Part shown: one piece after another, positions 15,719-61,677 of the stretch
Layout: every line of letters begins with the position of its first letter
How positions within the stretch are numbered: the first letter of the stretch is position 1
NCBI GenBank assembly: GCA_902778855.1
Contig: CACYZM010000002.1
Span: forward strand, 1-64,000
DNA length: 64,000 nt
DNA from: an uncultured Bacteroidia bacterium
Lineage (GTDB): Bacteria; Bacteroidota; Bacteroidia; Bacteroidales; UBA932
Direction: 5' to 3'
Position numbers and translations under genes: made by a program
Notes under the pieces: generated by a model
Database searches by the model: none
What the model saw: only the letters and a program-made list of their open reading frames with translations
Told to the model about the DNA's origin: nothing

Positions 15719-15792
15719 GCGCGCCAGAACCTTACAAACCGTCGCTTAGGCTCCGGTTTGAAGAACCTGTCGCTCCACCAGGCTCACGCGCG
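15719..15792 (+). repeat. CAGAACCTT palindromic repeat, copy R1, overlapping the 3' end of the flavoprotein gene
   Basis: About 74 bases built as CAGAACCTT, a hairpin (CAAACC...GGTTTG), then AAGAACC and CGCTCCACCAGGC. It matches copy R2 (16156-16230, opposite strand) and shares its flanks with copy R3 (59437-59513). The flavoprotein stop codon (15732-15734) and roughly its last 20 codons lie inside the repeat. Confidence 0.8.
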
Positions 15793-17072
15793 GACCGCAA
15801 AAGAAAGTTGGCCGCGCTCTGGCCGGCGAGGGAGCCGGTGGAGAAGGCGATCTGGAGGTTGTAGCCGCCGGTGTCGCCGTCGAGGTCGAGGACTTCGCCG
15901 CAGAAGTAGAGGCCGGGCCGGAGGCGCGAGGCCATGGTTTTGGGGACGATTTCCTTGAGGTTGACGCCGCCGGCCGTCACGACGGCCCGTTCATATCCCT
16001 TATAGCCGCCGATGCGCAGCGGCCAGCGTTTGAGCCGCTCCGGCAGGTTGTCGATCGTCAAGTCCGGATTCGCCCGCAGGAAAGGCCCGATCAATACTTT
16101 CGGCAGCAACGATTGCCGCTCCAAAAACTTCTCTGCGGAATTCCCAGCCAACTGACGTGCGTTGGCCTGGTGGAGCGGAGGGTTCTTCAAACCGGAGCCT
16201 GAGCGAGGGTTTGAAAGGTTCTGACGCGCGTTGGAAATGTCAGTTGGTTGGGAATTCCGCAGCAGGCGATTCCGTAACTGTTCTTGCGTGAGGGCGGGTT
16301 TGAGGTCGAGGAGGATGTCGACGCGCTGGCCGTTGCAGAGGGCCCAGACGGCGCGGCGGCTCAGGTGATAGGCGATGCCGCTTTCCAGCCCGTCGTCGGT
16401 GAAATTGAAATCGCCTTGCTCGTGCATCACTTCCTGACGGTCGATGCAGAGCGTCAGCCCGATGTTCTTCATCTCCAGACCGGGCAGGCCGGGATCATAT
16501 TCTTTGGGCAGCAGGGCCGTTTCGCTCGGGAAGGTCGCCGTGATCGTGTGACCCGCTTCTTCGGCCAGCCGGTAACCGTCGCCGGTCGAACCGGTGACGG
16601 GATAGGACTTGCCGCCCGTGGCGATGATAACGGCGTCGAAATCGCGCAGCTCGGCCAGACTGCCGACGCTGCTGCAGTAGCGGATGTCCACCCCCGATTC
16701 GCGGACCCGCCGCTCGAGGGCGCGGGCAACGTCGCCCGCCACCAGCGAGGCGGGATAGACGCGCTGCCCCTGGAGCGTGACCGTGGGAACGCTCAGTTCC
16801 GTTTCGAAGAAGCGGATCAGATCTTCATTGGAGAAGGCCCGGAAAGCGTTCTTCAGAAAACCCTGGTTGGGGTGGATGTGGGGCGCGAATTCTTCCCAGG
16901 TCCGGCGGTTGGTGAGGTTGCAGCGGCCTTTGCCGGTCAGATAGATCTTCCGGCCCAGCCGGTCGTTCTTGTCGAAAAGCACGACCGCCTGCCCGCCCAG
17001 CGCTTCGGCGGCCCGGATGGCCGCCATCATGCCGGCGGGGCCGCCCCCCACGATCGCCAGCCGCGGATTCAT
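15732..17072 (-). CDS. YhiN/HI0933-like FAD-dependent oxidoreductase carrying an in-frame repeat insertion
   Basis: A 446-residue flavoprotein of the HI0933/YhiN (BaiN-like) family. The N-terminal FAD motif is AIVGGGPAGMMAAIRA; GRKIYLTGKGRCNLTN and the C-terminal VTAGGVNLKEI and GLYFCGEVLDLDGDTGGYN are family signatures. The exact reaction is unknown. ATG 17072 overlaps the stop of the upstream gene (TGATG); a TTG one codon earlier is unlikely. Two parts look foreign. About residues 272-310 (NARQNLSNPRSGSG and neighbours) come from a small inverted-repeat insertion at 16145-16250 that keeps the frame. The last 20 or so residues (EPGGATGSSNRSLSDGL) come from a second copy of the same repeat. 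All core motifs lie outside these parts, so function is possible. Confidence 0.9.
   Translation of the reverse strand: MNPRLAIVGGGPAGMMAAIRAAEALGGQAVVLFDKNDRLGRKIYLTGKGRCNLTNRRTWEEFAPHIHPNQGFLKNAFRAFSNEDLIRFFETELSVPTVTLQGQRVYPASLVAGDVARALERRVRESGVDIRYCSSVGSLAELRDFDAVIIATGGKSYPVTGSTGDGYRLAEEAGHTITATFPSETALLPKEYDPGLPGLEMKNIGLTLCIDRQEVMHEQGDFNFTDDGLESGIAYHLSRRAVWALCNGQRVDILLDLKPALTQEQLRNRLLRNSQPTDISNARQNLSNPRSGSGLKNPPLHQANARQLAGNSAEKFLERQSLLPKVLIGPFLRANPDLTIDNLPERLKRWPLRIGGYKGYERAVVTAGGVNLKEIVPKTMASRLRPGLYFCGEVLDLDGDTGGYNLQIAFSTGSLAGQSAANFLLRSAREPGGATGSSNRSLSDGL
16145..16250 (-). mobile_element. Miniature inverted-repeat element (contains repeat copy R2) inserted in frame
   Basis: A 106-base insert bounded by CAGCCAACTGAC (16145-16156) and GTCAGTTGGTTG (16239-16250), which are inverted repeats with one mismatch. 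GGAATTCC lies on each side (16137-16144 and 16251-16258) and could be an 8-base target duplication. Because GGAATTCC is itself a palindrome, the same bases can also be read as a 22-base terminal inverted repeat running from 16135 to 16260. Its core (16156-16230) is repeat copy R2. Either reading adds a multiple of three bases (114 or 126) and no stop codon to the flavoprotein gene. Confidence 0.75.
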
Positions 17073-25609: not shown

Positions 25610-25715
25610 GTGGCACCTATATGGCTGTATATCAGCCTCTTGTTAATAATCGTGTGCGTAAAAATGCGCACACGATTATCTGGAATTGGCTGATTCTCAA
25701 GATAATAAGTGCCAC
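25610..25715 (+). repeat. 106-bp REP-like palindromic element, solo copy
   Basis: Starts GTGGC and ends GTGCCAC. The centre at offset 38 is AATCGTGTGCG-taaaaatg-CGCACACGATT (25648-25677). Further nested pairs (ATCAGCC with GGCTGAT) make the whole element fold on itself. Two more copies of exactly the same length lie at 60456-60561 and 61572-61677, around a transposase gene. This copy sits in the gap between tRNA-Ala and a TetR-type gene. Confidence 0.85.
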
Positions 25716-59436: not shown

Positions 59437-59513
59437 CTGCGCGCGGCAGAACCTTTTCAATTCGGGGGCGAGCCCCGAATTGAAAGAACCTTCCGCTCCA
59501 CCAGGCCTGCGCA
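59437..59513 (+). repeat. CAGAACCTT palindromic repeat, copy R3
   Basis: About 77 bases between argS and the DMT transporter gene. The flanks CAGAACCTT and AGAACC...CGCTCCACCAGGC match copies R1 and R2, while the central hairpin is different in sequence (TTCAATTCGGGG with CCCCGAATTGAA) yet still pairs perfectly. It may serve as the argS terminator or leader element. Confidence 0.75.
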
Positions 59514-60455: not shown

Positions 60456-60561
60456 GTGGCGGCTAACGTTCAGACTATCAGTAAATTCCATATAATCGTG
60501 TGCGCCAAAATACGCACACGATTTCTTGGAATACGCTGAAAATCACCGTGTTGAGTGCCAC
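60456..60561 (+). repeat. 106-bp REP-like element, copy downstream of the RAYT gene
   Basis: Starts GTGGC, ends GTGCCAC, with the central palindrome AATCGTGTGCG-ccaaaata-CGCACACGATT (60494-60523) at offset 38. TCAG and ATTCCA on the left pair with TGGAAT and CTGA on the right. The RAYT stop codon is 4 bases beyond it. Confidence 0.85.
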
Positions 60562-60565
60562 GGGA

Positions 60566-61504
60566 TTAACGCTCCGAAATGCTGGAAAGGTGAAGGAATT
60601 TCGCAATCTGCTGCGGACTGGCGCCGGTTTCGGCGGATAGGATCCAGGCGAGGCGTTGTTTCTCGGAATCAGGGAGAGAGAGAACGGCGGTCATGTCAGG
60701 GTAGGATGTCATTTTTCTGATAACGGAAAGCATCCTTTTGAAAATGGTGTCGGAATCCGGCGTCACCTTTTCTTTGATATCGTATTCGCTTCCGGTATTG
60801 GAATGAATGGCGGTCAGCATGGTTTTGAAATCCTCGTAGTATTCTTCAAGTCCCTGATAATCGATGCAGTTGAAACATGATACGGTATAGTCGGTTAATT
60901 GCTTGATTTCACTGGGAGACAAATCTTTGATGATTCGTTCAATCGTTGCGTAGTTCAATGGCGTATCCGTTGCCCGCAGGGATTTGATCTCTGCCACGGC
61001 GCGTCTCATCGGTCTGCTGGCTCCATTGAGTTTCAATGGTTGGGAGAAAGGATGACTGTTGTTGGCGTAGGTCAGGAAGTCCCACTGATAATCTTCGGCA
61101 TTTTTACACAGTTTCTTTTCGACAGGGTTGTTGTACAGATAGGCGATGGCCGTCCGTGCCTTTTTCTCGCCGCTTTTAGGTGCGCTGCCGAATCTGCGCT
61201 GAAAAAAAGAGCCCTTGCGTTGATACTGGACATTCCGTTGGCGGGAAAAACGGCAAGTGTATTCTTGGACGAAAGCCGACAGGTCCTTTTTTGAAGGTGC
61301 GGCAACCAGTACATGAATATGGTCATACATAAGGCATACGCCCAGAACCCTGATATGGCATTTTCGCGCAATTGTGCAGAATAGTGTAAAGAATACCAGA
61401 AAATCCCGGACGGAATAGAAAATGAGGAAACCGTCATAGGTGCGCTGATAGATATGATGAAGCGCTCCTGCCTTGAATACCCGATATCGTCCCTTCTTAG
61501 CCAT
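60566..61504 (-). CDS. REP-associated tyrosine transposase-like protein (Y1/HUH)
   Basis: A 312-residue protein of the Y1_Tnp/RAYT type, related to IS200/IS605 transposases that cut and join single-stranded DNA at hairpins. The HUH motif is His62 and His64 in LMYDHIHVLVAAPSKKDL; the likely nucleophile is Tyr122 in AIAYLYNNPVEKKL, a spacing of about 60 as in known Y1 enzymes. About 180 further residues form a C-terminal extension ending in an HTH-like ASPQQIAKFLHLSS. ATG 61504 is chosen because the promoter at 61527-61558 overlaps the alternative start 11 codons upstream. REP-like elements on both sides are its probable substrates. Confidence 0.85.
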   Translation of the reverse strand: MAKKGRYRVFKAGALHHIYQRTYDGFLIFYSVRDFLVFFTLFCTIARKCHIRVLGVCLMYDHIHVLVAAPSKKDLSAFVQEYTCRFSRQRNVQYQRKGSFFQRRFGSAPKSGEKKARTAIAYLYNNPVEKKLCKNAEDYQWDFLTYANNSHPFSQPLKLNGASRPMRRAVAEIKSLRATDTPLNYATIERIIKDLSPSEIKQLTDYTVSCFNCIDYQGLEEYYEDFKTMLTAIHSNTGSEYDIKEKVTPDSDTIFKRMLSVIRKMTSYPDMTAVLSLPDSEKQRLAWILSAETGASPQQIAKFLHLSSISER

Positions 61505-61526
61505 TCGTCCACATTTCAGGTCTCCA

Positions 61527-61558
61527 CAAAGATACAATCAGGATGACCTTTTTGCAAA
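61527..61558 (-). promoter_or_regulatory. Promoter of the RAYT gene
   Basis: On the minus strand TTTG (61555-61558), 20 bases, then TATCTTTG (61527-61534): a full Bacteroidota consensus. It fixes the start at 61504. Confidence 0.7.
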
Positions 61559-61571
61559 TCGATTTTTCGTC

Positions 61572-61677
61572 GTGGCGGATAACTCATTGTGAATGAGCTG
61601 ATTGCTAATAATCGTGTGCGTAAAAATACGCACACGATTTCTTGGAATGAGCTGAAAATCACCGGGTTGAGTGCCAC
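61572..61677 (+). repeat. 106-bp REP-like element, copy upstream of the RAYT gene
   Basis: Starts GTGGC, ends GTGCCAC; central palindrome AATCGTGTGCG-taaaaata-CGCACACGATT (61610-61639) at offset 38. Its right 45 bases are nearly identical to those of the copy at 60456-60561. Confidence 0.85.

Follow-up and report, generated by a model that had tools for sequence, protein, structure and literature searches.

A RAYT-like Y1 HUH protein and matching dispersed 106-nt folded repeats in a genus of uncultured Bacteroidales

In the 64,000-nt stretch of Bacteroidales DNA analysed here (herein referred to as the window), a gene for a Y1 HUH protein lies tightly between two copies of a palindromic element, a third copy of which stands alone elsewhere in the window (table 1). 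The question raised by this locus is whether gene and repeats form a partnership of the kind known from REP-RAYT systems or whether the repeats are better read as parts of an insertion sequence, as terminators or as targets of a regulator. We favor a REP-RAYT-like partnership between a domesticated, low-copy HUH/Y1 nuclease and cognate, fixed-length 106-nt folded repeats, and assign this reading a probability of roughly 0.84. Its observed basis consists of the bracket around the gene, the dispersed copies, the double stem of the element, the RAYT-like core and invariant catalytic residues of the protein, the match between repeat type and protein clade, and the existence of occupied and free sites.

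Table 1. Coordinates in the window of the 106-nt elements, their central hairpins and the Y1 gene.
Feature	Coordinates	Strand	Remark
106-nt element, downstream copy	60456..60561	+	ends 4 nt past Y1 stop codon
Central hairpin (AATCGTGTGCG-loop-CGCACACGATT), downstream copy	60494..60523	+	
106-nt element, upstream copy	61572..61677	+	67 nt ahead of Y1 start codon
Central hairpin, upstream copy	61610..61639	+	
106-nt element, solo copy	25610..25715	+	adjoins tRNA-like sequence
Central hairpin, solo copy	25648..25677	+	
RAYT-like Y1 HUH protein, 312 aa	60566..61504	-	H62, H64, Y122; core ends near residue 141

Structure and distribution of the 106-nt element

The initial annotation described three palindromic elements of 106 bp with common ends and a common central hairpin, and all three are present where it placed them and are exactly 106 nt long, each starting with GTGGC, ending with GTGCCAC and carrying AATCGTGTGCG...CGCACACGATT at offset 38. 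The two copies at the Y1 gene are indeed direct repeats (85/106 positions identical in direct orientation vs. 65/106 inverted). The hairpin pattern has an expectation of 0.00 in shuffles of the window and, folded as single-stranded DNA, every copy in the window scores better than all 200 dinucleotide shuffles (z = -4.4, -7.6 and -8.8); no Rfam family was matched at the Y1 locus.

Searching the genome from which the window derives (G000) with a pattern allowing up to three mismatches gave 17 places, which correspond to 16 distinct, complete copies because C17:85111 and C56:9462 are one copy on overlapping contig ends. Fourteen of these stand alone, so that the copy 35 kb from the gene, initially noted as a single solo copy, is one among many of its kind. 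Every complete copy in this genome has a 38+30+38 nt layout, and the copy on C4 retains the length of 106 nt even though it contains a second GTGGC. A covariance model built from the copies detected the element in 25 of the 40 genomes of the genus, with a length that is almost always 106 nt among the matches listed (genome-wide counts combine pattern and covariance-model searches). An absence of further copies in the genome and its relatives, which would speak against a partnership, is thus the opposite of what was found.

The presence of the element tracks the presence of a RAYT (counts 20/4/2/11; p = 9e-5 in a Fisher test uncorrected for phylogeny). Three genomes illustrate the mismatches: G018 (loci L279-L287) contains many 106-nt elements and no RAYT of the window protein's family was found in it, so that its repeats are possibly orphaned or their RAYT lost in an assembly gap, and G006 and G028 encode a RAYT with no element detected by the covariance model. 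Incomplete metagenome-assembled genomes may account for part of these mismatches.

Both stems of the element show paired substitutions. In a gap-free alignment of 40 copies from seven genomes, each a different species and every copy 106 nt long, the outer stem GTGGC/GCCAC is preserved in 39-40 copies, with compensatory changes at columns 6, 7 and 11. In the inner stem, columns 45:62 change from GC to UA in 18 of the 40 copies, columns 44:63 vary among UA, CG and GC with pairing retained, and the central stem switches type as a block (GTGTGCG, GGTTGCG, GCTTGCG), again without loss of pairing; the covariation score lies above all 500 shuffles and above every slid version. Between the stems, CTGANTATCAG-like motifs flank the central hairpin on both sides, and other repeat families, whose elements end in CTGGAG or CGCTGCAA, show an enrichment of the related motifs GCTGA, TCAGC and CTGAT at the corresponding positions. 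A model in which the CTGA/TCAG motifs form side hairpins (a cloverleaf) and one in which they pair across the element score alike.

The window also contains another dispersed repeat, some 80 nt long, at 15719-15792, 16156-16229 and 59438-59510, in which constant flanks (CAGAACCTT ... AGAACCTNCCGCTCCACCAGGC) enclose a hairpin of variable sequence. More copies are found elsewhere in G000 and across the genus, with no linked transposase gene so far.

Occupied sites, free sites and the matching of repeats to enzymes

The element is present in some species and missing in others at five sites, namely the purH-purD junction, three convergent gene pairs and a site on C37 (purH, purD and the EamA-type and YgiQ-type labels below are names read from translations). 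In G000 and G029, the Y1 unit itself follows a gene for an EamA-type transporter; in G011, G035 and G023 the EamA-type gene runs straight into a YgiQ-type gene with no Y1 unit. The purH-purD copy is common to G000 and G029 and is absent from G018 and several other genomes. In both genomes that have it, this copy (L017 1463-1568, equivalent to G000:C2:105007-105112, and L343) seems to give purD its start codon (ATGAGTATCAATGAG...). At the convergent pairs, the free allele can bear a different, terminator-like hairpin at the same place; insertion into unchanged flanks is not demonstrable for this reason. Among the compared sites there is no clean insertion into otherwise identical flanks and no readable target-site duplication, and the insertion boundaries are approximate at the level of single bases. 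The argument from constant length to precise mobilization, which was made at the outset, holds as far as the invariance of the 106 nt is concerned; mobilization would be a plausible cause of it.

One intergenic site, occupied in G000 (L010 266-371) and compared with its orthologs (L334-L341), carries a GTGTGCG hairpin in G000, GGTTGCG in G018 and G029, an element of another family in G061 and an ordinary terminator-like hairpin in some species, which suggests either hot spots or rewriting of the repeats.

The window protein is not the only enzyme of its kind in this genome. G000 encodes four such proteins, of which the three paralogs are 41-46% identical to the window protein, and contains no near-identical copies of the gene. 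One paralog is bracketed by GTTGATCCCC hairpins, of which the genome has five, and another by TCTTTCTGT hairpins, of which it has six (both patterns read backwards give zero matches in G000), and a third has a GCCCTCCCC element directly downstream. At least two of the paralogs hence own a multicopy hairpin family, and the third has a matching bracket element.

This correspondence extends well beyond G000. In a test of flanking hairpins at 82 related loci with enough flank, the hairpin was undetected on one or both sides at 47; at the 35 loci with hairpins on both sides, the arms agree across the gene in 31, as compared with 3% agreement between loci. Protein identity correlates with arm similarity (Mantel r = 0.70, 0/2000), and the 19 hairpin types, which were assigned by eye, require 18 changes on a tree of 41 proteins, the theoretical minimum. 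The possibility that the transposase gene occurs elsewhere always without the repeat can hence be set aside, since two-sided hairpins nearly always match and their type follows the clade. The dispersed copies behave likewise: GTGTGCG hairpins number 16 in G000 and 0 in G007, G024, G015 and G035, whereas GGTTGCG hairpins number 0 in G000 and 12, 9, 6 and 1, respectively, in those four genomes, whose RAYTs are bracketed by GGTTGCG. G029 is an exception, with a RAYT of the GTGTGCG type and mixed repeat types. Across the family, the brackets are direct at 14 loci, inverted at eight and undecided at nine.

A broader reading would see here RAYTs that carry a new C-terminal domain and have radiated within one genus. 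Several of these enzymes, resident in the same genome, would each keep private repeats, an enzyme could rewrite the central hairpins at fixed sites (concerted evolution) and the specificities of enzyme and repeat would diverge together; we regard this as a tentative and rather doubtful extension.

The RAYT-like core and its C-terminal domain

The Y1 assignment and the catalytic residues originally proposed (His62 and His64 of the HUH motif, and Tyr122) are borne out, all three being invariant in 42 homologs, which argues from sequence for retained nuclease activity. The originally suggested start at TTG 61537 is not upheld: ATG 61504 is most likely the start, because the homologs open with M-[KR]-G-R. 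The NCBIfam RAYT profile is matched by each of the 42 full-length homologs, and 31 of them also match the IS200 profile, more weakly. For the window protein itself, the E-values are 2.3e-17 (RAYT, NF047646) and 7e-4 (IS200, NF033573), and its RAYT score of 63.3 bits lies under the curated NCBIfam cut-off of 80. The AlphaFold model is confident (pLDDT 89), and its sole match in the PDB at E<0.001 is 4ER8, the Escherichia coli RAYT with a REP hairpin; the alignment covers the core, with a TM of 0.72 when scaled to target length. Profile and predicted fold both place the core nearer to RAYT than to IS200.

Beyond this core, some 165 residues (about 148-304) form a helical C-terminal domain. Modeled alone (pTM 0.44), the domain matched nothing in the PDB, and nothing in Pfam exceeded the cut-off, with a sub-threshold HTH_23 match in the tail. 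A search with the domain only found four copies in the genome of the window and zero in 197 other Bacteroidales genomes. We can only guess at its role; possibly it holds DNA, perhaps the conserved internal CTGATNATCAG motif of the element. In a separate scan that gave 120 related loci, the 80 that were kept all come from Bacteroidales/Bacteroidia assemblies, mostly derived from ruminants. A search of phages with the protein gave no match, and a search of plasmids gave partial matches to the core only, the closest being a 235-aa protein of R. rubrum with NHIH and YIELNP.

A member of another Y1 subfamily (NHLH, about 325 aa) is encoded in the same genome at L347 (G000:C54) 298-1275, with doublets of TTCCGGTCCA/TGGACCGGAA hairpins at a spacing of 52 nt on either side of the gene. 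Near a relative (L352, G013:C52, 1937-2444), seven 52-nt tandem repeats with a hairpin are found.

Alternative readings and relation to known systems

How the partnership might operate can be outlined as follows. In single-stranded form, such as might arise on the lagging-strand template, the element would fold, with the outer stem closed by GTGGC/GCCAC; the nuclease would read the central hairpin, Tyr122 would cut at the foot of the element, and the unit would be transferred to a new site, often just past a stop codon.

An alternative is that the C-terminal domain makes the protein a different machine, such as an autoregulator that binds the bracket hairpins, with the repeats being spread by gene conversion or template switching. 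The tight distance from the upstream hairpin to the start codon (center 116 nt, interquartile range 109-120) and the orthologous site that bears different hairpin types in different species are in keeping with this proposal, which we nevertheless consider improbable given that the HUH and Tyr residues have stayed invariant across the homologs. Alternatively, the elements may be mainly bidirectional terminators or RNA-stability hairpins under selection, linked to the Y1 protein by history and no longer moved by it. Copies do lie near gene ends, with 13 convergent and two divergent settings among 31 classifiable ones (a census based on crude six-frame ORFs and indicative only), and free alleles can have a terminator-like hairpin at the same place; yet the invariant 106 nt, the match of type to clade and the presence of a separate bracket type at each paralog would all be left unexplained, making this quite improbable as the main account. 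Terminator function is compatible with mobility, and the two can coexist. Least of all do we expect an insertion sequence of the IS200/IS605 type, with the two hairpins as its ends and the solo copies as MITE-like remnants: a Y1 HUH core and subterminal hairpins are common to both, but each bracket is a complete 106-nt unit like the solo copies rather than a left-hand or right-hand terminus, the gene has not multiplied (its paralogs being as divergent as described above), profile and fold favor RAYT, and the near-identical multicopy unit with a transposase between unlike ends that typifies IS200/IS605 is lacking.

The REP-RAYT-like partnership that we favor shares much with gamma-proteobacterial REP-RAYT (TnpAREP; the E. 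coli REPtron, 4ER8), including the HUH/Y1 core for which RAYT is the best fold and profile match, a low-copy gene bracketed by dispersed palindromic repeats, and a repeat type that tracks enzyme type. It differs in that REPs are 20-40 nt long with an unpaired GTAG foot, whereas the unit here is a 106-nt double stem, and in that the window protein has 312 aa, a new C-terminal domain and a score under the curated RAYT cut-off. Indeed, the element does not conform to the canonical REP (a short hairpin with an unpaired 5' GT[AG]G foot), since its GTGG is part of the outer stem and is separated by 38 nt from the central hairpin. The initial claim of the same kind of partnership as RAYT and REP accordingly stands with respect to the copies, the RAYT-like core and the type-clade match, but not in the sense of canonical REPs; recognition and dispersal of the element by the window protein are what we infer.

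REPINs are likewise fixed, composite palindromic units that exceed a single REP in length and disperse whole, as the present element appears to do; they consist, however, of two inverted REPs and a spacer, whereas in the present element no hairpin is stronger or more specific than the central one.

The literature already describes RAYT-REP systems and TIRYTs as well as a subclass from Bacteroidetes whose genes are flanked by atypical structures (PMC3733652, PMC6006769, PMC8266576), and our placement against the published RAYT subclasses rests on their published motifs and lengths. The Bacteroidetes subclass 2.6/RAYT group 5 (179 aa, HuH-Y distance about 82, NH[LIV]H, WQ, YIH[QN]NP; PMC6006769) resembles the present family in its hosts, in its flanking "atypical secondary structures" with copies elsewhere and in having no conserved GT[AG]G foot (PMC6006769); in contrast, the window protein has 312 aa, an HuH-Y distance of 58, DHIH, YLYNNP and no W between HUH and Tyr. 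TIRYTs/subclass 2.1 share the long C-terminal extension and a similar HuH-Y spacing, and have known HTH/DnaA-like tails and terminal inverted repeats (PMC3733652, PMC6006769). The tail of the window protein gives the sub-threshold HTH_23 match and no family above cut-off, and its brackets are each a complete folded unit, in direct orientation at this locus but in mixed orientation elsewhere in the family. A search of the available literature for papers on Bacteroidales REPs found none beyond PMC6006769 and PMC3733652. We therefore regard the family as a new RAYT variant, because it is RAYT-like in its working yet falls short of the curated score, the canonical REP and the length, spacing and motifs of subclass 2.6. 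In this sample it is limited to one genus of uncultured gut bacteria, which would explain its absence from earlier surveys of complete genomes.

The REP-RAYT theme thereby reaches uncultured Bacteroidales of the rumen and gut, where the protein carries a domain of which searches elsewhere found no relative. To our knowledge, biochemical work on REP recognition covers only a few proteobacterial systems. Here, dozens of diverged pairs of enzyme and repeat are available within a single genus, as many as four of them per genome, with 19 hairpin types that track the enzyme tree and a repeat length that hardly ever changes; such natural variants make it testable which part of a RAYT reads the repeat and whether repeats are spread by RAYTs.
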